Below are positions 3,879 through 26,056 of a DNA stretch of 64,000 nucleotides, piece by piece. A program made the position numbers and the translations under genes. Each line of letters begins with the position of its first letter. Position 1 is the stretch's first letter. Location: assembly GCA_026770025.1 (NCBI GenBank), contig JAMXDE010000007.1, positions 124,001 through 188,000 on the forward strand, written 5' to 3'. Origin of the DNA: Craspedostauros australis (taxonomy: Eukaryota; Bacillariophyta; Bacillariophyceae; Mastogloiales; Achnanthaceae). The notes under the pieces were generated by a model. It had not been told where the DNA came from, did no database searches, and worked only from the letters and a program-made list of their open reading frames with translations.

Positions 3879-6800
3879 ATGGCGGATTACTACACAGAGG
3901 AGGACCCGGCGGCCGGTGGTGAGATGGAGGGCAACGGCGAGGGCATGATGATGGCGGAGGGCCAAGGAGGAGGAGAGGGCGAGGAAGGCATGATGGAGAT
4001 CGACGAGGAGGACATGCCGGTGACGCAGGAGGACTCGTGGGCGGTGATCTCCGCCTACTTCGAGGAGAAGGGTCTCGTGCGGCAGCAGCTGGACAGCTTC
4101 GACGAGTTCATCCAGAACACCATGCAGGAGCTCATCGACGACAGCGGCGACATCCGCGTCTCGCCGGAGCTGCAGCACACCGTGGGCTTCGACGAGGAGG
4201 CCTTCGACAACCAGCAGGCGTCGGAGACCAAGCCCGTGTTCGAGATCCACTTCGGCCAGGTCTACCTCAGCAAGCCGACGACGGTGGAGAAGGACGGAAC
4301 GGTCACCAACATGTTCCCCCACGAGGCGCGCCTGCGAAACCTCACCTACAGCGCGCCGCTCTACGTCGACATATCCATGAACATGTACCACGTGCTCAAG
4401 GACGTCAACATCACGGACCCCAACGAGGACATGGGCGAGGCCACCTCCACGGAGCACGCCAAGAAGGAGTTCCTGGGGTACGTGCCGATCATGCTCCGGA
4501 GCTTGTTCTGCGTGCTCAGCGACAAGGACGACAGAGACCTCAGCGACTTGGGCGAGTGCATCTACGACCAGGGCGGCTACTTCGTCATCAACGGCTCCGA
4601 GAAGGTCATCATCGCGCAGGAGCGCCTCAGCAACAACCACGTCTACGCCTTCCGCAAGAAGCAGCCGTCCAAGTTCTCCTGGGTCATCGAGACCCGCTCG
4701 CAGGTGGAGAACTCCACGCGCCCCGTCTCCACGCTCTACCTGCAGATGTACCAAAAGGGGGGTCGCGGCGCGATCGAGGGCAATCAGATTCGCTCCACGC
4801 TGCCGTACATCCGCACCGACGTGCCCGTCGTCGTCATCTTCCGCGCCCTTGGCTACGTCGCCGATCGCGACATCATCGAGCACGTCGTGTACGACCTCAC
4901 GGACGGCGAGATGATGGATCTGTTCCGTCCATCCCTCGAGGAGGCCTTCGTCATCCAGCGGCAGGATGTGGCGCTCGATTTCATCGGACGTCGTGGCAGC
5001 GCCCGCGATGTCACCAAGGACGATCGTATCCGCTACGCATCCGCCATCCTGCAGAAGGAGGTGCTGCCGCACGTCGGCATCGAAGAGCACTGCGAGACGA
5101 AGAAGGGATTCTTCTTTGGATACGCCGTGCACAAGCTCCTCATGTGCAAACTGGGACGCGCCAACGAGGATGATCGTGATCATTTCGGCAAGAAGCGACT
5201 CGATCTCGCGGGTCCCCTTCTCGGTGGTCTTTTCCGTCTCCTCTTCCGCAAGCTCACGCTGGATGTGCGCAAGCACTTGCAGCGATGCCTTGACGAAGGC
5301 AAGGTCTTCAATATCGGCGCGGCCATCAAGAGCAACCACATCACGGATGGTCTCAAGTACAGTCTGGCGACAGGAAATTGTAAGTTGATTCTGTGTCCGC
5401 TGCCTTGCTTTCCATTGCTGGAGGTTGCTCGTGTCGGGATTGTTGCACGCGAAATCGCCTTGTCGTGCCGAAGTGTCGAAAAAAATTGTCACGTAATTTC
5501 TCACACAGGCTGCTTCTCTGGTCCGCTCCAATACAATCCGCACCATGCTTCCGCGCATGCCATTGCAAATGATAGGGGGAGATAAGGGAAATGCAGGAAA
5601 GGCAGGTGTGTCGCAGGTGCTGAATCGATTGACGTACGCATCGTCGCTGTCACATTTACGTCGGTGCAACACTCCGCTGGCCAGAACCGGAAAGCAGGCA
5701 AAGCCGCGTCAGTTGCACAACACTCATTGGGGGATGGTTTGTGTGGCGCCGGACACCACGGTCCTTCTCGCTGACAACACCCTCGCGCAGATCGGCGACC
5801 TCGTCAAGGCGAATGCGCCATCATCAGCCCATGTCGCCGTCGTCAATCCGCAGAATCGATCCAAGGTGCTGTCCGGCGTCGTGGCGTATCAGCAGTTCGA
5901 GGCGAAGAACTTCGGCAAACGAATTCTGAAAATCAAAACGACCACAGGACGTGCCATCGTGGCGACGGAGGATCACGCCTTCGCCGTCGAGTCCGGCAAT
6001 GCATTTGGGGGCAAGTTCGACCTTGCTGGCGATTTGTCGGTCGGCAGATCGGTGCTTCTGCATCCGACACCGATCATCGCCGGTGCATGTGCCACTGGGG
6101 ACGATAGCAGCTACAACAGCAACGTCCATTCGGATATATCTGCGACGACCATCTTGGATGGCACAGCATTCGTGCACTTCCTTCGTGACATCGGCCAGGA
6201 TGATAAAACCGCTATCTCCGATCTGCAACGCCTGGAGAGATCGGGACTGCTTCCGCTCACTTCCAATAGCAAGCACCTCGGCATGTTTGCAAAGATGATT
6301 GGGTACTTTACCATGGGCAATATCATGGACAGAGGCTCGGCATCCGTCGCAATGCACGTTGCATCTCAAGCCGATTGCGATGAGATCGAGGCTGCATTGC
6401 AAACGATCGGATACGACGGTGATTCGTCGCTGTTGGAACAGTCCATCTCTCGCGAACGCTTCAACGCTCCAGCAGGCGCGTCGTCTTGTTGGAAACTCAA
6501 TATGGACGGTCCTGTCGCTCGTCTCTTGCTGGCACTTCAGTCCCTCTCGGGCGACAGTGCTGATCAAACCCCGCAGGTGCCTTCGTTTATCCTTCAAGGA
6601 TCATCGAACGTTCAGGCCGCGTACCTGTCGGGCGTCTTTGGCGCTGTTGCTTCCGCACCAACTTTCACAGCAATCGAAGGGTCCGTCCAAAGTCGTCTCG
6701 ATCCACCTACTCTGTCACTGACCACACATCGTGCGCTGCACTTTGGTCGCGACCTTGAACAGATGCTTGGATCCTTGGGTATCGCGACAATCGAAAGACA

Positions 6801-9524
6801 GACGGCAAATGCTCCCGTTAGTCTCGACAGCACCCACGAGAACATGATCAGGTTTTTGAACCATGTCGGCTTTGCGTTCAACAAAAGCAAGACCAACCAG
6901 GCACGAATCTGCGGAGAATACAGCCGCTCCTGCTTGCATGCTGCTGCTGCTGCTTGTGAAGATGCTGTAGATCACGAAGATATGACGTGGGGAGCATTCC
7001 TCGAGGCGTCGAAGGCAGACCTGGCAACAGGCACGATGTACGCCACCATCGAATCCATCGAGGAGGTGCGGCACGATGAGTGCCCCATCGTGATGGACCT
7101 GACCACCGTCAGCGACATTCACACGTTCGTCTCCAATGGATTCGTCACCCACAACTGCCCTGCCGAAACGCCAGAAGGACAGGCCGTCGGTCTCGTGAAG
7201 AACCTTGCCCTCATGGCGTACATCACAACGGGAACCGCGCAGGTGCCAGTGATGGAGTTTTTGGAGGAATTCAGCACGGAAAACCTCACCGACATCTTGC
7301 CATCCGTCATCGCCGAGCCCAACACGTGCAAGATCTTCGTGAACGGAAACTGGGTGGGAATCCATCGTGATCCCAAGGCACTCGTCGACACATTCCGATC
7401 TCTGCGAAGAATGGTGGACATCGATGCGGAAGTGTCCATCGTCCGAGACATCGCGGAGAAGGAGGTTCGCATCTACACGGATGCTGGGCGTATCTGCCGA
7501 CCGCTGTTCGTCGTCCAAGATCAGCAGCTGGTGATCAAGAAGGAGCACATCATGCAGTTGCAGGGCATCAACCCGGACCAAAAGCGTCTGTCGTGGACCG
7601 ATCTGTTGATGGAAGGTATCGTGGAATACATCGACACGGAGGAAGAGGAAACGACCATGGTAGCCATGGAACCGAAAGATCTTGACTCTGAGGATTCATA
7701 TTCCTCCACTTACACGCACTGCGAGATTCACCCTTCCATGATCTTGGGAGTCTGCGCCTCCATCATCCCATTCCCCGATCACAACCAGTCCCCACGTAAC
7801 ACATACCAAAGGTGAGTCGCGTTCAGGAAGTGGTATCTGCCGCTGGGCTTTGGGTCGGTGTGCAAGTGTGCGAGTGTGCGAATCAATTTGCATACGCTCG
7901 GGCTTCCGTTTGCTCTCTGCACACCATCCGGTGATGGGTGGCCTCTTTGACTGACCGATTGACTGGCTGACTGATCCATTGATCGATTGATTAACTGATC
8001 ATTGCATTGACTCACTCATCACTTCCTCAATCACGTGCTCATTCATTCTGTCGACGCACCCGATATCACTTTGCATGACAACATGTCCGTGTTTCGATTC
8101 TCGCCAAACACCAACAACATGCCTTCACACAATTGCGCAGTGCCATGGGCAAGCAAGCGATGGGAATCTACGCATCGAATTACCAGGTCCGCATGGACAC
8201 GATGGCACACGTGCTTCATTACCCACAAAAGCCCCTGTGCACAACCCGTGCCATGGAGTTCCTGCATTTCCGCGAGCTTCCAAGCGGTGTGAACGTCGTC
8301 GTAGGCATCATGGTCTACACCGGATACAACCAAGAAGATTCCCTGATCATGAATCAGTCCGCCATCGACCGTGGTCTCTTCCGCAGCTCTTACTACCGTT
8401 GTTACATCGACCAGGAGAAGTCCAGCACCATCGGCACGATAAATTCCATGACCTCGGAACTGTTTGAGAAACCGTCTCAGGATAGCACGCGTGGAATGAA
8501 GCACGGAGATTACAGCAAGATGGACGAAGACGGCCTCGTGGCGCCAGGAACACGAGTGTCTGGTGACGATGTGCTGATTGGAAAGACCGCCCCGATCGAC
8601 TCCACCGCCAACATGCCCTCTCGGTACACCAAGCGCGATTGCAGCACATCCATGAAGGCAAACGAGAACGGCATCGTCGACAACGTGCTCATCAGTACCA
8701 CAAAGGAGGGATACCGGTTCACAAAGGTCCGCATCCGCAACGTCCGCATCCCGCAGGTCGGAGACAAGTTCGCCTCGCGCCACGGGCAGAAGGGAACGAT
8801 CGGTATGACTTACCGTCAGGAAGACATGCCATTCACCATCGAGGGGCTTGTGCCTGATATTATCGTGAATCCGCACGCTATTCCATCGCGTATGACCATC
8901 GCCCAGCTCATCGAGTGCCTTCTTGGGAAGGTCGTCGTCTTCCAGGGATGCGAGGGTGATGCCACGCCGTTCACCGACGTGACTGTCGAGGACATCAGCA
9001 CGCGACTCCATGCCATGGGGTACCAGAAGCACGGCAACGAGCATCTGTTCCAAGGACACACCGGCCGTCCCATGTGCGCTCGCGTCTTCATCGGCCCGAC
9101 CTTCTACCAGCGCTTGAAGCATCTTGTCGACGACAAGGTTCACTCTCGTGCCCGTGGACCAGTCGCGATGCTCACCAGACAGCCGCTGGAGGGTCGTTCC
9201 CGAGATGGCGGATTGCGCATGGGAGAGATGGAACGCGATTGCTTGATCACTCACGGTTGCGCTAACTTCATCCGCGATCGCTTCTTCTGCAACTCCGATC
9301 AGTACCGTATCCACATCTGCGAACGTTGTGGTCTGACGGCACAGGCTAACCTCAAGAAGATGACGTACGAATGCCGCACGCCGATGTGCGTCGGCCGTCC
9401 CACGAAGATCTGCCAAATTGAGATTCCGTACGCGTGCAAACTGCTGCTGCAGGAGATGATGTCCATGTCCATCACCACCAGGATCTACACCGAGGTTCGC
9501 CAAACTCGGGATAGCTCATACTAA
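3879..9524 (+). CDS. RPB2: DNA-directed RNA polymerase II subunit RPB2, with intein
   Basis: Second-largest catalytic subunit of nuclear RNA polymerase II. Exons by motif continuity and GT-AG sites: 3879-5379, 5576-7811, 8141-9524. Intron 1 (5380-5575, 196 bp) splits the Trp codon of LATGN-W-GDKGN; intron 2 (7812-8140, 329 bp) splits the Ser codon of [13 protein letters not shown]. Exon 2 contains an in-frame intein (5740-7155). Without the intein the protein is 1234 residues, close to yeast Rpb2 (1224). Visible hallmarks are an acidic N-terminus, the protrusion/lobe and fork regions, [20 protein letters not shown], the hybrid-binding [32 protein letters not shown], and a C-terminal zinc clamp (CERC ... 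CRTPMC). The start ATG (ACCATGG context) precedes the acidic leader. Rpn13 lies upstream on the same strand. Confidence 0.95.
5740..7155 (+). other. Intein in RPB2 (472 residues, degenerate homing endonuclease)
   Basis: The insertion separates WGMV from CPAETPEG, a stretch that is continuous in RPB2 of other eukaryotes. It is in frame, has no intron signals and no stop. Splicing blocks are intact. Block A begins with Cys1 ([12 protein letters not shown]). Block B has TEDH (Thr76, His79). Block F is [14 protein letters not shown]. Block G ends VTHN with His471 and Asn472, followed by extein Cys+1. These are the residues of a class 1 self-splicing intein. The central part, about 120-400, has the layout of a LAGLIDADG (DOD) endonuclease. 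However, the two motif positions read IGYFTMGN (187-194) and [10 protein letters not shown] (296-305), with no Asp at either catalytic site. Splicing is therefore expected to work and homing to be lost. Boundaries are exact by motif; activity is inference. Confidence 0.93.
7945..8030 (+). repeat. Degenerate TGAC/TGAT tetranucleotide tract in RPB2 intron 2
   Basis: Inside intron 2 the sequence consists largely of TGAC, TGAT and GATT words in tandem. It is non-coding and probably a decayed microsatellite. Confidence 0.5.
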
Positions 9525-11526: not shown

Positions 11527-11888
11527 TGTCGAGATGTACATGTGAGTATATGTCGAGGTGTACAAGTATATGTGCATCGTTCAACTGTTATTCTCTCATA
11601 CGCACTTGGACGGTATAACTACATTCGTTTCGATAGTATGCTGTGATTCGTCAGAATTACAGTGGAAATGGAACACACGAAAATGAGCAAGATTTCTGGA
11701 GGAAATTTGCAAATGACGATTTCTGAGAGAATTAGAACATCGTCCGTCCATCCATCAATGGTACCAAGAGAATCTCGAGGTACTTCCCAACTAAACCTCA
11801 GATGACGATATCATCTGACAGACTCATGCATCACCAATGGAACGTGACATCTGGAGAGCAGAAGGACGCCTACTGATGTTGACAGGAT
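11527..11888 (+). mobile_element. Truncated copia LTR (forward, first ~360 bp)
   Basis: Begins TGTCGAGATGTACATGTGAG like the two LTRs of the complete element and follows them for about 360 bp. It stops at CAGGA, where the end of a reverse-oriented LTR (TGTTGGCAAG) begins. The second half of this LTR is not found elsewhere in the window. It carries private substitutions (for example GTTTCGATAGTATGC), so it is a separate, older insertion. Confidence 0.85.
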
Positions 11889-12675
11889 GTTGGCAAGTTC
11901 CGCTCACGGTAACCTACGATTGTGGAAGGTGGTGTTGGTTGATAGTCGTTCGTTTGCTATTTCATTAGTTGGCTACTCCGATCCTCTCGGTGTACGCCCG
12001 TTCTCTTGCCTGATGCTCTCGGTGCTTCAATCTGTTTCATAGATTCGGTCTCCGACTATGAGTCGGTACGCGCGATGCTCTCTCGCTCTTCTCTCTCTCT
12101 CTCTTTACTCTCTCTCTCTCAACATCATGTACTTGCGCTACATGATACTCCGTGTTCGATGCGTACTCCGCATTCGACACTCCGTTCATTCAGTACTGGT
12201 TCCTACTCCATGAGTACTTACCATTTGAAGTTCACCTTCAGTATCCATGGGTCATAGGATCTTCGCCTCCTGCTCTGACTTGGAGACAGATGTCGACGTG
12301 GTGACACCATGACATCCTGTCGACATCAGTAGGCGTCCTTCTGCTCTCCAGATGTCACGTTCCATTGGTGATGCAGTGGTCTGTCAGATGATATCGTCAT
12401 CTGAGGTTTAGTTGGGAAGTACCTTGAGATTCCCTTGGTACCATTGATGGATGGACGGACGATGTTCTAATTCTCTCAGAAATCGTCGATTGCAAATTTC
12501 CTCCAGAAATCTTGCCCCTTTTCGTGTGTTCCATTTCCACTGTAATTCTGACGAATCACAGCATACTACCGACACGAATGTAGTTATACCGTCCAAGTGC
12601 GTATGAGAGAATAACGGGTGAACGATGCACATATACACGTACACCTCGACATATACTCACATGTACATCTCGACA
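11889..12675 (-). repeat. LTR of the reverse copia element
   Basis: 787 bp, starting TGTCGAGATG and ending CTTGCCAACA on the minus strand, i.e. TG...CA ends. Its first ~550 bp carry the same diagnostic bases as the right LTR of the forward element (CCGTTATTC, GTCGGTAGTATGC, GCAATCGACG, GGGAATCTCAAGG); its last ~230 bp are more diverged, with a different GA tract. Confidence 0.9.
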
Positions 12676-12691
12676 CTCTGTGTGCATTCGG

Positions 12692-15686
12692 TCATTCGAA
12701 TGTTCTTGATGTGTCAAGGTACGACTTCTCGTGTTCGCGTTGTAAGTCGGCCTTGATGTTCTTGGTGAATCCGTCGCTTGTGTTCTGCTCGGATTTGACG
12801 AAAATGATTTCGATGGTTTTGTTGATTACCATGTTCCTCACGTAGTGATGGCGCACGTCGATGTGCCACGATCGTTGGGATGTCGATGGGTTCTTGGCGA
12901 TGAAGATCGCTCCGATGTTGTCCACACGGACCTTGATCGGTGTCTTCACTGGGATGCCCACACTCTCGAGTAGCTGCATGACGAAGAAGATTTCCTTTGC
13001 CGCTTCGGAAAGGGCAACGTATTCTGCTTCGGATGAGCTGAGTGTGACGGCCTTCTGTGCCTTGGATCGCCAAAGGGTTGGCACCTTGCACAGGTATAGA
13101 ATGAACCCTCCTACGCTGATTCTCGTGTTCTTGTCTCCTGCATATTCGCTATCGCAGAAGAGCTCCATGTCCCAGCCGTCATTGTCTGGACGCGATGGGT
13201 GGATCTTCAATCCATAGTCCTTCGTATCGATCACATACTTGATGATCCGATACATCTCCTTCATTGCGGCCTTAGTGGGCCCGATCAATACCTTGGAGAG
13301 TTCCCTCACAGGGTTCGCGATATCTGGTCGCGAGTGCTTGATGAGGAAGAGTAGCATACCGACGCCTCAGCGGTATTCGGCATGTTCTTCCGGTCCGACC
13401 TTCTGTAGTCCGTTATCTTCGGATGGTCATACGATGATTTGACCCGGGGTTCCCAGTGTCGCGTAGCGTTGCATCTTCTCAACCTTGGTTCCGAACTCTT
13501 CGATGAGGTGTCGGATGAGGTGTGGTTGACGCAATGTCGCTCTGGTCTTGTCATGGTTCAGTTCGATGTTGCAGCTGAGGTAGTCTCCAAGTCCGCGCTC
13601 GGTTGTTACCTTGAATTTGCTGCCTTGGATGTCCTTCAGGAATGTCTCCAGTGCCTTGGAGTCTCTGCAGCAGAAGCAATCGTCCACGTAGATGGCCACG
13701 ATCATGCTTCCTTCGTTCGTTCTTCGATAGAACAGGCACGGGTCCGCTGTGCTCTGTTCGAAGTTGATATTCTTGAGGGTCGACACCAACATCTTGAACC
13801 ACTGCCTGGCGCTCTGCACAAGTCCGTAGATTGGCTTGTGTAGGGTCAGGGCTTCGTCTGGTTGATGATCCATCCCGTTGGGACAGTTCATGTAGATCTC
13901 CTCGTCGAGGTCTCCATGTAGGAATGCCGTTACGACATCGACGAGTGCGCAGTCCATCTTCTTGATCAGCATGATCACCATCATGACCCGATAGGTCACG
14001 TCATGGATGACAGGTGAGTAATGCTCTTGAAAGTCTACTCCTGTGACTTGTGAATAGCCACATGCAACGAGTCGTGCTCGATGTGTGCCGTCGCGTTTCA
14101 GCTTGAAGACCCATTTGCACTTGCAGCATCTGCGGCCGCGTGGGATGGCGTCTCGTTTGATCTTGCTGTACACTTTGCGTGTATCCATGGAGTCGAACTC
14201 TTTCTTGATGGCCGCTCGATATCCCTTTTGGTGGATGGGATCTGGATGATTGAAGGCTCCATCGAATGTCGTTGGTTCGATGTGCTTCTCTGGTTCCTTG
14301 TTCTTGTCCTGCATCGACAGTCCGATGTCAATCGCTGGTGCCTCGGTGATGATTGCGTTCATCCTGTATAGTCCTGTTGTGCTATGATGAGTGATCTCGA
14401 TCTCTTCATCTTCGTCTATGATTTCTTCGTCATCTGCAGTTTCGTTGTTAGATTCATCAGTTATCTCGTCGTTGAGTTCGTCACTATCTTCATTGGATGA
14501 TGATTCGCTCTCATAGCCTTCTTCCTTTCGACCTCGTTCATTGAAGTCTGCGAGCTCACGCAGAGCTCTGGGAATACTCTTCCCTGTAGTTGGTTTGGGA
14601 TTGGCTTCTCCCTTCCTGCCTTGTGCTTCGTGACGTCGGATCCTCTCCTTTCTAGCTATGTCACGCTTGCTTGGTTTGCTTGGTGGAGGTCTCGATGGTG
14701 TGTCATGTGTAGACCTTGCTGGTGTGTTTCGAGGAGTGATGCCTGTGTCATCGTTGGCTTCATCGCCGGATGGTAGGATCTTGTCATCCTCATGATTGGA
14801 TTCGTTCCGATCTTCGTCGTTGTTGTGGGTTAATTCCGTTACTATTCCATCGACCTCGTCATCCTCATCATCACTGTCTGATAGGATGTGGTATTTGTTC
14901 GTGTTGGCGAAAGATACTCTCTTTGCTTCTGATGTTCGACGCGTTGCCGTCCTTGGCATTGCTCCCTTCCGTCCGATGGTTGTGAAGCCGTCTGCGTCCA
15001 TCGTTCCTGCTTCGCTGGATATGTTCGGTGCTGGTGCCCAGCCACGGAACTGTCCGTATGATTGATTGAGCCATTTGATGTCGCGAGAACAGACCAGTGA
15101 TTTGGTGGATGGTCTGTACATGTTGTATACTCGTGATGCATGTTGGTGTGCATATCCGATGAACACCATCTCTTCTCCTCTATTCTTGAGTTTGGCGGTG
15201 ATCCCGCCGTAGGCAGTCTTCACAACACCCACCTCTCCAAACGTGCGGAGTGCTTCCGCATATGGTGGATCGTTGCCAAAGAATTGGCGATGTGGTGACT
15301 CCTTCTGGTTCTTCGCTACAGTGATGTTGGCGATAGCGGTGGCAGTGCTCGCAGCTGCTGCCCACAGGCCATGCCTATACTCTTCGTTGAGCTGTGCTCT
15401 GTTGAGCATGGAGCGGATCTTGGTGCAGAGGTACGCGAACTTGCGTTCTACCCTACCGTTCTGTTGCGGCGTGTTCGATGCCGTGAATTCGAATTTCACG
15501 TTGAGTCCTGCATCGATGAGAATATCCTGCGTGGATTTGTTCTCTCCGCTGTTGTCACCTCGGAAGATGATCTGTTGGTCACCAGTCTGTGACTTGATCG
15601 TCTGGACGAATCGTTTGATGTATCCTGGTTGATCACTTTTGTTCTTGAGAAAGAAACTCCAGCAGTGATCCGTGCAGTCGTCCACG
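12692..15686 (-). pseudogene. copia pol fragment: integrase C-half, RT, RNase H
   Basis: The minus-strand frame runs from the truncated integrase core (15685) through DNSGENKS and NGRVERKF, an acidic Ser/Glu-rich linker and reverse transcriptase with YVDD, to a TGA at 13427-13429. After 23 codons in the same frame, with a second TGA at 13367-13369, it continues as RNase H (13357-12692; SSSEAEYVALSEA). Without the N-terminal half it cannot be functional. The two TGA codons are at exactly the same sites as in the forward copy. Confidence 0.85.
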
Positions 15687-16470
15687 TGTCGAGATGTACA
15701 TGTGAGTATATGTCGAGGTGTACGTGTATATGTGCATCGTTCACCCGCTATTCTCTCATACGCACTTGGACGGTATAACTACATTCGTGTCAATAGTATA
15801 CTGTGATTCGTCAGAATTACAGGGGAAATGGAACACACGAAAAGGGGCAAGATTTCTGGAGGAAATTTGCAAATGACGATTTCTGAGAGAATTGGAAGAT
15901 CGTCCGTCCATCCATCAATGGTACCAAGAGAATCTCGAGGTACTTCCCAACTAAACCTCAGATGACGATATCATCTGACAGACTACTGCATCACCAATGG
16001 AACGTGACATCTGGAGAGCAGAAGGACGCCTACTGACGTCGACAGGATGTCATCATGTCACCACGTCGACATCTGTCTCCAAGTCAGAGCAGGAGGCGAA
16101 GATCCGATGACCCATGGATACTGAAGGTGAACTTCAAATGGTAAGTACTCATGGAGTAGGAACCAGTACTGAACGAACGGAGTGTCGAATGCGGAGTACG
16201 CATCGAACACGGAGTATCGTGTGGCACGAGCACACGATGTTGAGAGAGAGAGAGAGAGAATACAGAGAGGAGCGAGAGAGCATCTCGCGCACCGACTCAT
16301 AGTCGGAGACTGAATCTATGAAACAGATTGAAGCGCCGAGAGCATCGGGCAAGAGAACGGGCGTACACCAAGAGGATCGGAGTAGCCAACTAATGAAATA
16401 GCAAACGAACGACTATCAACCAACACCATCTTCCACGATCGTAGGTTACCGTGAGCGGAACTTGCCAACA
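15687..16470 (+). repeat. 5' LTR of the forward copia element
   Basis: 784 bp, TG...CA ends (TGTCGAGATG ... CTTGCCAACA). It contains a GA microsatellite at about 16238-16260. It differs from the 3' LTR at several places (CCGCTATTC, GTCAATAGTATAC, GCAAATGACG, AGAATCTCGAGG, GATCCGATGA). Confidence 0.92.
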
Positions 16471-19500: not shown

Positions 19501-22500
19501 CGGCCACGCGCCACTTGAAGCCATGAAGCGGACAGCCGCCCAATACGGATGGAAGATTATCGGCGAGATGCCGGTATGTCGCGACTGCGCGGTCGCGAAC
19601 GCAAGAGTGAAGAACATTCCGAAGGCAACCATTCCGAGAGCAACTCGCCGCAGCGAACGGCTCTTCATTGACATTAGTTACACTAAACACATAAGCTTCG
19701 GAGATAAACGCTACTGGACCCTGATCGTGGACGACTGCACGGATCACTGCTGGAGTTTCTTCCTCAAGAACAAAAGTGATCAATCAGGGTACATCAAACG
19801 ATTCATCCAAACGATCAAGTCACAGACTGGTGACCAACAGATCATCTTCCGAGGTGACAACAGCGGAGAGAACAAATCCACGCAGGATATTCTCATCGAT
19901 GCAGGACTCAACGTGAAATTCGAATTCACGGCATCGAACACGCCGCAACAGAACGGTAGAGTAGAACGCAAGTTCGCGTACCTCTGCACCAAGATCCGCT
20001 CCATGCTCAACAGAGCACAGCTCAACGAAGAGTATAGGCATGGCCTGTGGGCAGCAGCTGCGAGCACTGCCACCGCTATCGCCAACATCACTGTAGCGAA
20101 GAACCAGAAGGAGTCACCATACCGCCAATTCTTCGGAAGCGATCCACCATACGCGGATGCACTCCGCACTTTCGGAGAGGTGGGTGTCGTGAAGACTACC
20201 TACGGCGGGATCACCGCCAAACTCAAGAATAGAGGAGAAGAGATGGTGTTCATCGGATATGCACACCAACACGCATCAGGGGTCTACAACATGTACAGAC
20301 CATCCACCAAATCACTGATCTGCTCTCGCGACATCAAGTGGCTTAACCAATCATACGGACAGTTCCGTGGCTGGGCACCAGCACCGAACATATCCAACGA
20401 AACAGGAACAACGGACGCAGACGGCTTCACAACCATCGGACGGAAGGGAGCAATGCCAAGGACGGCAACGCGTCAAGTATCAGAAGCAAAGAGAGTATCT
20501 TTTGCTGACAGCAACATGTACTATATCCTATCGGACAGCGACGATGAGGATAATGAGGATGATGGAGTAGTAACTCAACTGGTCCATAACGACGACGAAG
20601 ATCGGAACGAATCCAATCATGAGGATGACAAGATCCTACCATCCGGCGATGAAGCCGACGATGACACAGGCATCACTCCTCGAAACACACCAGCAAGGTC
20701 TACACATGACACACCATCGAGACCTCCACCAAGCAAACCAAGCAAGCGTGACATAGCTAGAAAGGAGAGGATCCGACGTCACGAAGCACAAGGCAGGAAG
20801 GGAGAAGCCAATCCCAAACCAACTACAGGGAAGAGTATTCCCAGAGCTCTGCGTGAGCTCGCAGACTTCAATGAACGAGGTCGAAAGGAAGAAGGCTATG
20901 AGAGCGAATCATCATCCAATGAAGATAGTGACGAACTCAACGACGAGATAACTGATGAATCTAACAACGAAACTGCAGATGACGAAGAAATCATAGACGA
21001 AGATGAAGAGATCGAGATCACTCATCATAGCACAACAGGACTATACAGGATGAACGCAATCATCACCGAGGCACCAGCGATTGACATCGGACTGTCGATG
21101 CAGGACAAGAACAAGGAACCAGAGAAGCACATCGAACCAACGACATTCGATGGAGCCTTCAATCATCCAGATCCCATCCACCAAAAGGGATATCGAGCGG
21201 CCATCAAGAAAGAGTTCGACTCCATGGATACACGCAAAGTGTACAGCAAGATCAAACGAGACGCCATCCCACGCGGCCGCAGATGCTGCAAGTGCAAATG
21301 GGTCTTCAAGCTGAAACGCGACGGCACACATCGAGCACGACTCGTTGCATGTGGCTATTCACAAGTCACAGGAGTAGACTTTCAAGAGCATTACTCACCT
21401 GTCATCCATGACGTGACCTATCGGGTCATGATGGTGATCATGCTGATCAAGAAGATGGACTGCGCACTCGTCGATGTCGTAACGGCATTCCTACATGGAG
21501 ACCTCGACGAGGAGATCTACATGAACTGTCCCAACGGGATGGATCATCAACCAGACGAAGCCCTGACCCTACACAAGCCAATCTACGGACTTGTGCAGAG
21601 CGCCAGGCAGTGGTTCAAGATGTTGGTGTCGACCCTCAAGAATATCAACTTCGAACAGAGCACAGCGGACCCGTGCCTGTTCTATCGAAGAACGAACGAA
21701 GGAAGCATGATCGTGGCCATCTACGTGGACGATTGCTTCTGCTGCAGAGACTCCAAGGCACTGGAGACATTCCTGAAGGACATCCAAGGCAGCAAATTCA
21801 AGGTAACAACCGAGCGCGGACTTGGAGACTACCTCAGCTGCAACATCGAACTGAACCATGACAAGACCAGAGCGACATTGCGTCAACCACACCTCATCCG
21901 ACACCTCATCGAAGAGTTCGGAACCAAGGTTGAGAAGATGCAACGCTACGCGACACTGGGAACCCCGGGTCAAATCATCGTATGACCATCCGAAGATAAC
22001 GGACTACAGAAGGTCGGACCGGAAGAACATGCCGAATACCGCTGAGGCGTCGGTATGCTACTCTTCCTCATCAAGCACTCGCGACCAGATATCGCGAACC
22101 CTGTGAGGGAACTCTCCAAGGTATTGATCGGGCCCACTAAGGCCGCAATGAAGGAGATGTATCGGATCATCAAGTATGTGATCGATACGAAGGACTATGG
22201 ATTGAAGATCCACCCATCGCGTCCAGACAATGACGGCTGGGACATGGAGCTCTTCTGCGATAGCGAATATGCAGGAGACAAGAACACGAGAATCAGCGTA
22301 GGAGGGTTCATTCTATACCTGTGCAAGGTGCCAACCCTTTGGCGATCCAAGGCACAGAAGGCCGTCACACTCAGCTCATCCGAAGCAGAATACGTTGCCC
22401 TTTCCGAAGCGGCAAAGGAAATCTTCTTCGTCATGCAGCTACTCGAGAGTGTGGGCATCCCAGTGAAGACACCGATCAAGGTCCGTGTGGACAACATCGG

Positions 22501-22720
22501 AGCGATCTTCATCGCCAAGAACCCATCGACATCCCAACGATCGTGGCACATCGACGTGCGCCATCACTACGTGAGGAACATGGTAATCAACAAAACCATC
22601 GAAATCATTTTCGTCAAATCCGAGCAGAACACAAGCGACGGATTCACCAAGAACATCAAGGCCGACTTACAACGCGAACACGAGAAGTCGTACCTTGACA
22701 CATCAAGAACATTCGAATGA
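16553..22720 (+). CDS. copia Gag-Pol polyprotein, interrupted by two in-frame TGA codons
   Basis: First block 16553-21985 (1810 residues). It holds Gag with two CCHC zinc knuckles (Cys388, Cys440) split by an Asn-rich run, then an acidic region. Protease follows with DSG at 834 (WLVDSGASCHIV). Next come the pre-integrase zinc segment (LHRMLGHA ... CRDC) and integrase with a DD35E triad (Asp1040, Asp1102, Glu1138). An Asp/Glu/Ser linker leads to reverse transcriptase with YVDD at 1724-1727. TGA at 21983-21985 and again at 22043-22045 interrupt the frame in the RT-RNase H connection. The same frame reopens and codes RNase H (22055-22720; ELFCDSEYAGD, SSSEAEYVALSEA) to its stop. As it stands, RT without RNase H would be made unless TGA is read through. 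Confidence 0.9.
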
Positions 22721-22736
22721 CCGAATGCACACAGAG

Positions 22737-23526
22737 TGTCGAGATGTACATGTGAGTATATGTCGAGGTGTACGTGTATATGTGCATCGTTCACCCGTTA
22801 TTCTCTCATACGCACTTGGACGGTATAACTACATTCGTGTCGGTAGTATGCTGTGATTCGTCAGAATTACAGGGGAAATGGAACACACGAAAAGGGGCAA
22901 GATTTCTGGAGGAAATTTGCAATCGACGATTTCTGAGAGAATTAGAACATCGTCCGTCCATCCATCAATGGTACCAAGGGAATCTCAAGGTACTTCCCAA
23001 CTAAACCTCAGATGACGATATCATCTGACAGACCACTGCATCACCAATGGAACGTGACATCTGGAGAGCAGAAGGACGCCTACTGATGTCGACAGGATGT
23101 CATGGTGTCACCACGTCGACATCTGTCTCCAAGTCAGAGCAGGAGGCGAAGATCCTATGACCCATGGATACTGAAGGTGAACTTCAAATGGTAAGTACTC
23201 ATGGAGTAGGAACCAGTACTGAATGAACGGAGTGTCGAATGCGGAGTACGCATCGAACACGGAGTATCATGTAGCGCAAGTACATGATGCTGAGACAGAG
23301 AGAGAGAGAGAGAGAATACAGAGAGGAGCGAGAGAGCATCTCGTGTACCGACTCATAGTCGGAGACTGAATCTATGAAACAGATTGAAGCGCCGAGAGCA
23401 TCGGGCAAGAGAATGGGCGTACACCGAGAGGATCGGAGTAGCCAACTATTGAAATAGCAAACGAACGACTATCAACCAACACCATCTTCCACGATCGTAG
23501 GTTACCGTGAGCGGAACTTGCCAACA
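22737..23526 (+). repeat. 3' LTR of the forward copia element
   Basis: 790 bp, TG...CA ends. Its first two thirds are nearly identical to the LTR of the reverse copy (11889-12675); one clear mismatch is AGGGGAAATGG here versus AGTGGAAATGG there. It interrupts the piggyBac-like gene on its right. Confidence 0.92.
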
Positions 23527-25215
23527 GGCTTTTGGGAAACTGCCATGGTTGTTCTTGACGACGCCAATGAAATCAGAATCTGCTTGAGTGGTCAAGGCAT
23601 GACTTGTCCGATAGGAACTGAACCAGGCATCGCCAAGGAAGATGCTCTTTGGAAGGTGTGGTGGATGGTAGTGAAGGTTCTGCTCTCCCATTCTGCTGGT
23701 GGCCATTGCCATGCGAAGGGTGCAGGCAACATGTGCTCGCTTCACAGTATCAAGATACTTTGCGTTCTCCATTCCCTTCTTGCCTCTCTGTATCTCCAGA
23801 TGCAGCATGATGCCAGTTGCACCATCAGCCACCAACTTGAACTCAGTACCTAAGGGCTCTGGCTTGCAACTGACGAATGTCAGGTGCGGAAGGTTCCCAT
23901 TTTTCTTTGCTTGAGGCTGAAAAGCACTCATCGATTCATCAAGTACTTTGATGTGACTTGGTATGACAACTTCGGAGCGGCGGCGGTTGAATGCCTTGAC
24001 GCCTGCCTGAATTTGCCACCATGGATCCTTGCCCCTCCTTGATTCATCCGCAAATATCATCGGCATCAGAATTTTGCGGAGTTGGCGGAAGCGTCCTTTG
24101 GACATGTAGTTTGAGATGTTCATAGTCTGCAGGAGCCCTTCCTGTTGCCCCTGGCCCCAAAGGTTGCAGGTGTTGTGTAGCTTTCCCAGAAGCATGATGC
24201 CAAAGAACACCCAGAACTCGCTATCGGAGACGGTGCGGGAGATTCCGATCGAGTTTCCTGCTGAATTTGCATCGGTGATCCGCTGGTTGAAGCAGTCCAC
24301 CTGCGCTTTCCAGTCACGTGGCCAGATGTGTTGGATGAGGTGCAACAAGTTGGCACGGCCCCTTTGGCTGTTGCTTGACTTTCGCGATGTGTCGCGGAAG
24401 TTAAACCCCGTCACTGCTACAGTATTGTATGGCAAAGGGCTGTGAGCCTGGATGTGGTCGTCAGGAACCACAGTCCAGGTCTGAGTATCAAGACCCTTGC
24501 CCACAACAACATTCGTCCCCATAAGGGCAAGCTTGGCTGCCCTGTGCGGCACTGCGTCGGCCAGTCGGTCGCCTCGAAAGGAGTAGTTGAGATGCGGTCC
24601 ATCATGGACTGACAAGATGCTGGCGTCGTCGCCCATTGGCACCTCGCCACCGCCATCAGCGCCATCAGCTCCATCAGAAGCATCGCGGCAGCTGCTGTGA
24701 CCGTCAGTGCGAAGCTCGTCGCCATTGGAGATTGCTCCTTCGATGGGTTGAGAGCAAGGGACAGAGTCTGATCCAGCTGGAGGAACACTTGGCATCGGTT
24801 CAAGATGGCCATGATGGGAGTGATTAGAACTGTTTGAAATCGATGCGTGGGCGATGGAGACGCCAGCCATCACGTTCCTGACTGCTGGGCCAATCTGGAG
24901 CGCTGCATGGGGCGCAGCAATGAATGCGTGTTTCCTCTGGATGCGTCGCAGTGCCAACATACCCTTCCCAATGTAGCGGGTGCGGATGAGGTCTGCAATT
25001 TCCTCAGGAGGGTCATGATGGATGGGTTCATTGATCAGCTTCAACGTCGCAGCTTGGTGGTCACACACTACGTCGAGCGAGGTCCAGTGGATCGCCCAGA
25101 CGCGATCAGCGAGGGACTTCAGCACGACGCCGCGGAGAGGGACCTTCTCACCATGAGATCCATGGGAGGGATGATTGAACTTGGAGAAGACGTGAGAACC
25201 CACTTTGAGAGGCAT
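23446..25215 (-). pseudogene. piggyBac-like transposase, C-terminus replaced by LTR
   Basis: DDE_Tnp_1_7 (piggyBac) family transposase. The likely start is the Met at 25215, just before the conserved-looking N-terminus MPLKVGSHVFSKFNHP; an upstream in-frame Met exists at 25404. Native sequence runs to 23527. Residues about 30-110 form a small N-terminal domain and 115-270 a low-complexity linker. The catalytic core follows, with NLLHLIQHIWPRDW-type helices, LDESMSAFQP (first Asp) and FLGDAWFSS (second Asp). After KNNHGSFPKA the frame enters the copia LTR and ends at 23446 with about 26 LTR-encoded residues. The third catalytic Asp and the Cys-rich tail are missing, so the enzyme should be inactive. 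Confidence 0.82.
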
Positions 25216-26056
25216 GGCGAAGAGGAATGTTGGTGGTGGGCAAGTTGGTTGTGATACTTGGAGGAGTACTGAAGTGGAGGAAAGTTGGTGTATCTTTGGA
25301 GGAAGCGAAATTCGAAGACCAAGGCGAGATGGGGAGGTGCAAGAGAGGCTACTGCGTTGATTGAAAGAAACGGCACGATGATCCGACATCAGCGCGAGGC
25401 ACAACCTTGCATCAAGTAGAGAGACTCAGGTGAGCAGCACAGTACGAATCTACAACACGTAAAAACGCACGATAATTTTTGGCGCGAGCTTTTGTGCGTT
25501 CACGGATCGATGATCATGGCTGTCACGAGCATTAGTGACTGACTTCATACACCCACAGCAGCACACAAACGCATTCCGGACCACTGACCAACACACCACC
25601 CAAAGCAGAATGAAGTTGTGGATTCAGCTATGCCATCCACTTGAGTAATAGACGAAACAGAATTGGATGCGGGTCTTTGGAAGACGGTTGGTCGAGATTG
25701 GACGAAGAAGCAACAAATTATTGTACCAGAACGTCGTAGACTCTACGCGGTTACCAATGGTTACCAACGACGAAATTCCGAAATCACATCCGTACGTCGT
25801 CCGTATGAAAAAGGGCGATAAAGGGTAAAAAGAGGCATCGAGATGAACAGGAAGCGGAGACCGTTTGCCTACAATGAACACATCAATAGAGAGCTCTCAC
25901 TCTCCTCTTTCTAATGATGTGAAGATGCCAGGCAACGGCCATCAACTCATCGAATGGCAGCTTGTGCCGTCGGTGATATGCCAATGGTTACCAATAATTA
26001 CCAAAAAGTGCCAAAAAACCGGAAATTAGCCAATAGCCACTAGGTGAACTTCAACT
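25216..26056. other. Intergenic region right of the piggyBac remnant
   Basis: 841 bp with no recognisable gene. Several near-repeats of the words GGTTACCAA/ATTACCAA occur around 25745-26015. Terminal inverted repeats of the piggyBac element were looked for but not identified. Confidence 0.35.

Follow-up and report, generated by a model that had tools for sequence, protein, structure and literature searches.

CroV is a giant virus that infects a stramenopile flagellate. The RPB2 intein of CroV is listed at the site called RPB2-c, with no homing endonuclease (Table 3, PMC3423634). Batrachochytrium dendrobatidis carries an intein at the same junction (Bde RPB2-c), which is 488 aa long in the protein P0024, in agreement with the size given in Table 1 of Goodwin 2006 (PMC1635734). 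A 2018 survey (PMC5784728) lists nuclear inteins in fungi, amoebozoans, choanoflagellates, an apusozoan and one green alga; diatoms have no nuclear intein in this listing. The survey is not exhaustive, since its nuclear RNA-polymerase row omits green algae despite the RPB2 intein of Chlamydomonas in Goodwin 2006 (PMC1635734). We found no report of a nuclear intein in a diatom among the titles and abstract openings listed in searches of the open-licence PMC literature. Here we examine an insertion in the RPB2 gene of the diatom Craspedostauros australis, in a window of 64,000 nucleotides (the whole stretch of DNA that was analysed, positions 124,001 to 188,000 of contig JAMXDE010000007.1).

A preliminary description of this DNA had placed a 472-residue in-frame insert between WGMV and CPAETPEG at 5740-7155, had listed its class 1 splicing residues, and had attributed the gene to the nucleus of a plastid-bearing stramenopile, with a spliceosomal intron on either side. 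The coordinates are exact, and the residues are all present: C1, T76/H79 (T-x-x-H), H471-N472 and C+1. The extein tree identifies the host as a diatom, the gene lies on a 3.06-Mb contig, a separate contig (C90) is of plastid type, and both introns are GT-AG. To this we add that the insertion point, between WG[LM]V and CPAETPEG, is that of the known RPB2-c allele of Batrachochytrium (and of CroV, according to PMC3423634), that both catalytic acids of the endonuclease are lost, and that a second diatom-like RPB2, P0003, has an allelic intein. "Allele" here means a shared site, not shared descent. Judging from its sequence, the insert is very probably a splicing-competent intein with a dead endonuclease; it was probably acquired horizontally, and we regard the chances for and against a viral donor as evenly balanced.

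Reading frame, splicing motifs and endonuclease of the insert

The insert is 1416 nt (472 codons) long and free of in-frame stops. Under a first-order Markov model with matching composition, 11.9 of them would be expected on average, and the probability of none is about 7e-6; each of the remaining five frames contains 4 to 18 stops. Its first codon is TGT (Cys), its last two are CAC AAC (His-Asn), and TGC (Cys+1) follows. When the insert is left out, joining 3879-5379, 5576-5739, 7156-7811 and 8141-9524 gives an RPB2 of 1234 aa without internal stops, whose Pfam Rpb2 domains 1 to 7 are spread over three exons and whose identity with the intein-free diatom-like RPB2 P0032 reaches 92%.

The profiles TIGR01445 (38.9 bits, cut-off 24.5) and TIGR01443 (16.3 bits, cut-off 15.6) both match the insert, which has the HINT fold of class 1 inteins and, as expected of these, is missing from the majority of RPB2 homologues. 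Searches with the intein returned no match at E 1 in the PDB sequences or in PHROGs, and nothing at E 0.01 among 7995 candidates of a protein database, in which only proteins of similar length were eligible.

The two acids of an active LAGLIDADG endonuclease are both replaced (TDG by TMG, GGDGS by GAVAS). They are intact (TDG, GGDG) in the inteins of the virus-like RPB2s P0005 and P0007, which occupy the same protein site. The inteins of the window and of P0003 are 54% identical in the N-terminal splicing region (60/111), 71% in the C-terminal one (39/55) and 26% in the endonuclease region (76/288); for the pair P0005/P0007, the values are 56 and 65% in the splicing regions and 41% in the endonuclease region. 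Conserved splicing regions next to a diverged endonuclease fit an ongoing need for splicing, and none for homing, in the diatom inteins. The RNA polymerase inteins of Bodo saltans virus are described in PMC5871332 as having no active endonuclease and hence as fixed.

In the mechanism that we favor, the intein would be transcribed and translated within a precursor of 1706 aa, from which the HINT domain would excise it by an N-S acyl shift at Cys1, transfer to Cys+1 and cyclisation of Asn472; ligation of WGMV to CPAETPEG would then give the 1234-aa RPB2. Homing is expected to be dead because both catalytic acids are lost. The intein would persist because its site is highly conserved and only an exact loss would leave the gene working.

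Table 1. The RPB2 gene of the window and the parts of its insert
Feature	Position	Strand	Remarks
RPB2 exon 1 (N-extein)	3879..5379	+	stop-free joined coding sequence; Pfam RNA_pol_Rpb2_1, Rpb2_2
Spliceosomal intron 1, 196 nt	5380..5575	+	GT-AG; exon join gives TGNWGDKG, as in diatom-like P0032, P0039
RPB2 exon 2, end of N-extein	5576..5739	+	closes with ...HNTHWGMV
RPB2-c intein, 472 aa	5740..7155	+	profile matches TIGR01445, TIGR01443, PF14890
Intein N-terminal splicing region, aa 1-113	5740..6078	+	Cys1 at 5740-5742; T76-E-D-H79 at 5965-5976
Degenerate LAGLIDADG-like homing endonuclease region, aa 114-417	6079..6990	+	predicted fold
LAGLIDADG motif 1, MIGYFTMGN	6295..6321	+	acid of TDG replaced by M
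LAGLIDADG motif 2, VFGAVAS	6634..6654	+	acid of GGDGS replaced by V
Intein C-terminal splicing region, aa 418-472	6991..7155	+	D453, H461, H471-N472
RPB2 exon 2, C-extein	7156..7811	+	opens at Cys+1 of CPAETPEG; Pfam Rpb2_3, 4, 5
Spliceosomal intron 2, 329 nt	7812..8140	+	GT-AG
RPB2 exon 3 (C-extein)	8141..9524	+	includes stop codon; Pfam Rpb2_6, Rpb2_7

Intron 2 (7812-8140) sits between NTYQ and SAMGKQ, which is another RPB2 intein site in P0017, P0083 and P0084, where the intein (C...HN) separates YQ from SAMGKQ.

The host gene and its genome

In the RPB2 extein tree (FastTree, with L020, L023 and L025 excluded for their short or scattered matches), the window is placed among the diatoms (support 1.0) and groups there with P0032, P0003 and P0039 of Thalassionema nitzschioides (0.992). 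The group is also obtained under other sampling (0.946), where the pair of the window and P0032 has a support of only 0.404. P0003 and the insert-free P0039 are sisters (0.98).

The assembly consists of 74.8 Mb in 90 contigs. With its GT-AG introns and its contig of 3.06 Mb, the RPB2 gene is placed on a nuclear chromosome. C90 is an AT-rich contig of 133 kb with plastid-type Pfam domains (RpoC-type polymerase, ribosomal S2 and L1, ATP synthase, DnaB, cytochrome b6), which we take as the plastid. Photo_RC has no match in the assembly; two of the five sampled 10-kb pieces of C90 are wholly N-masked and one partly, so that the absence of psbA is uninformative. One RPB2 was found, together with three further matches at 42, 39 and 34% identity, and the nuclear RPB2 gene is apparently single-copy. 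According to the preliminary description, expression of an intein-free RPB2 from elsewhere in the genome would have spoken against an intein; only paralogues were found in the assembly, and a degenerate pattern of the empty site has one match there, with 2 mismatches, in a paralogue on contig C10. The intein N-terminal model has one match in the assembly, parts of which are masked.

An open reading frame of 463 aa on C90 (3358-4746, L035) is a plastid-type DnaB, in which the intein N-terminal model is silent; chloroplast DnaB inteins are listed for heterokonts in the 2018 survey (PMC5784728). Elsewhere in the window, 12108-15686 and 19726-23304 read, from their open reading frames, as two Copia-like retrotransposon stretches in inverted orientation; these arms of 3579 nt are 98% complementary and 4039 nt apart, and more inverted arms are seen near 11527-16470 and 23320-23526. 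On the minus strand, 23446-25404 is an open reading frame of 652 aa that resembles a piggyBac-type transposase.

Related inteins and the origin of the diatom intein

A search of this region with the longer read-through protein as the query scored 7987 candidates, of which 1655 fell under 0.001 and 120 were listed; the protein set comprises 202 sequences, including two derived from the window. An intein-like end, N followed by CPxETPEG, is present in 36 of the 202, the window's own included. The C-terminal signature is HTF, as in the window, in 19 of them and HSFFANS in 8 (chytrids, Coemansia and allies); the last 9 have other signatures. Of the 52 further RPB2 rows that reach 80% identity, only P0003 is interrupted; the other 51 run through the site, 49 of them with the exact motif WGx[VIL]CPxETPEG.

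A related intein is inserted 10 residues past the RPB2-c site, between ETPEG-x-[AG] and C (then CGLL), in the virus-like P0004, P0015, P0125 and P0132, and both sites are occupied simultaneously in P0004 and P0125. The close chytrids Homolaphlyctis (P0022) and Batrachochytrium (P0024) have, at the same RPB2-c site, different kinds of inteins by C-terminal signature. The inteins of P0115 and P0087 are nearly identical in N-terminal sequence and measure 142 and 485 aa, respectively; P0115 looks like a recent loss of the endonuclease region.

The intein tree was built from the splicing regions (32 rows, 151 columns). The window and P0003 form a pair (97.6/99) inside a clade (98.8/100) that also contains P0004-P0008, P0010-P0012, P0014, P0016, P0125, P0149, P0164 and, from the neighbouring site (ETPEG-x-[AG] before C), four inteins. 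Its 19 rows come from virus-like RPB2s (15), the two diatoms, P0006 and P0016. The tested RPB2-c inteins of chytrids and Coemansia, that of Anaeramoeba and those of P0019/P0020 lie outside, so that the RPB2-c inteins are not one monophyletic lineage: at least two kinds occupy the site. The tree by insertion site that the preliminary description had proposed thus places the diatom pair in a mostly virus-like clade, without making the site itself a lineage. In a tree of whole inteins, the window, P0003 and P0006 group together (99.7/98) and adjoin P0005 and P0007 (86.3/81), a grouping that may be exaggerated by rapid endonuclease decay.

In the extein tree, P0004, P0005, P0007, P0011, P0012 and P0015 are joined by 16 relatives in a clade (1.0) that lies outside the eukaryotic RPB2s (0.999), and P0008, P0010 and P0014 lie among IMG/VR virus contigs. 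A 2025 paper places nucleocytovirus RNA polymerases outside eukaryotic clades (PMC12198294). We infer indirectly that the P0007 group is virus-like. Since the intein and host trees disagree, horizontal transfer is indicated. The lineage of RPB2-c inteins carried mostly by virus-like RPB2s would have come to the diatoms by horizontal transfer, with a DNA virus as its most likely source or vehicle. Transfer from virus to host, which the preliminary description had raised, agrees with the intein tree as one possible donor and direction among others, the viral labels being indirect.

A search with alignment A1 gave 20 IMG/VR RPB2 loci, among which L027 has no match to the query. At E 0.01, the intein N-terminal profile matches 7 of 16 IMG/VR records, of which 5 exceed the cut-off; the matches are counted irrespective of site. 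No relative came up when viral contigs were scanned with P0001, P0007, P0008 and alignment A2; one peptide match of 20 residues in a viral contig was rejected, the first 1500 bases being unlike RPB2.

Several observations weigh against the interpretation that we prefer. Splicing is a prediction from the sequence; PF14890 scores 30.3 bits (E 4.4e-7), under its curated cut-off of 35.8 bits; and the codon usage of the insert (r 0.78) is less host-like than that of two other open reading frames of the window (0.82 and 0.91). As to the lost acids, the chytrid P0036 keeps TDG and GGDG, and P0003 has lost the first acid and keeps the second, which weakens a strict rule that hosts have dead copies and viruses live ones. 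Branching within the intein clade is weakly supported (26.2/68 for the diatoms, P0006 and the P0008 group), and the P0008 group joins L011 and L019 in the extein tree at only 0.603-0.707. None of the 20 IMG/VR loci has an intein end at the RPB2-c site, 12 of them reading straight through it; the P0007 group has no relative in IMG/VR; the 120 homologues that were listed for P0007 include no virus name; and a query of the host genome with P0007 found only RPB2, its paralogues and C90, hence no virus-like RPB2. A capsid profile matched 0 of 17 records, which is uninformative since no control matched either. Last, P0006 (with P0080) lies inside the eukaryotes and looks like a cellular eukaryote, yet belongs to the intein clade of the diatoms, and Homolaphlyctis, a chytrid for which only the end of the intein is available and which is therefore not in the tree, shares the C-terminal signature of the window; non-viral donors are therefore possible.

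That the insert is an unusual intron, spliced out before translation, is highly improbable. RPB2 does have two other introns, and the Homolaphlyctis model P0022 keeps only the last 84 residues of its insert, the rest being seemingly called an intron. However, only three cuts leave the extein intact, and the insert cannot be removed by canonical intron splicing because they end in TG-AC, GT-CT and TG-TG; moreover, the frame is open, and P0003 and virus-like genes conserve the encoded protein sequence. A fusion of a viral or other intein to the diatom gene by misassembly or contamination is scarcely credible: the GC3 of the insert (63.8) is lower than that of the exons (71.6 to 87.6), but the frame is exact at both junctions, codon usage in frame follows that of the flanking exons (r 0.78, as opposed to 0.57 and 0.30 for the two alternative frames) and the separate assembly of P0003 has the same arrangement.

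If the insert is indeed a splicing intein, it could have descended vertically from early eukaryotes and been lost in most of them, virus-like genes having acquired it from hosts. The monophyly of the diatom pair and the RPB2-c inteins of such distant eukaryotes as P0006, Homolaphlyctis and Anaeramoeba agree with this view, which we nevertheless consider unlikely: 51 of the 52 other diatom-like RPB2s, including the close P0032 and Thalassionema P0039, have no insert, and the kinds of inteins conflict with the host tree, B. dendrobatidis and Homolaphlyctis being close by RPB2 while their intein signatures differ. It is improbable that the intein is retained because it benefits the host, for instance as a maturation switch for RPB2, since its conserved splicing regions and its diverged endonuclease with lost acids, which such a role would explain, are also expected wherever a single-copy gene depends on being spliced exactly; signs of regulation were neither sought nor found. 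Hardly more probable is that the homing-dead intein is kept as a shield, which would hide the RPB2-c site of the host from the endonucleases of related viral inteins; TDG and GGDG are unbroken in the virus-like P0005 and P0007, and loss of the intein would then re-expose a presumably essential gene.

Comparison with described inteins

With a nuclear intein in a diatom, a major algal group joins the hosts of such inteins. Its site is listed for a giant virus too, it is related to inteins of virus-like RPB2s, and host and virus may have both the site and the kind of intein in common; this possible viral link is more than an extension of range. With homing-dead and apparently homing-competent relatives at one site, the homing cycle and the transfer from virus to nucleus become testable.

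The intein of P0003, a diatom-like RPB2 on a 7.8-kb ENA contig, is at the same site as that of the window and has also lost the first catalytic acid, but it is 491 aa long, keeps the second acid and is 39% identical over the whole intein (175/454). The mini-inteins of P0008, P0009, P0010, P0013 and P0014 have the site and the C-terminal signature of the window, but measure 216-219 aa and have no endonuclease. The insertion point, Cys1, His-Asn and Cys+1 are common to Bde RPB2-c and the diatom intein, and the LAGLIDADG acids of Bde RPB2-c are lost too (SAG, GGNG); however, the two are only 21% identical over the aligned intein (90/422), their C-terminal signatures differ (HSFFANSIVSHN on one side), and Bde RPB2-c falls outside the clade of the diatom intein. 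Cre RPB2-a of Chlamydomonas (Goodwin 2006, PMC1635734) is, like that of the window, a nuclear RPB2 intein of an alga, but it occupies another site (RPB2-a, in the anchor domain) and ends in Gly-Asn. By its listed name, the site of the CroV intein is the same as that of the diatom, and the CroV intein reportedly has no endonuclease, while the diatom intein has a degenerate one.
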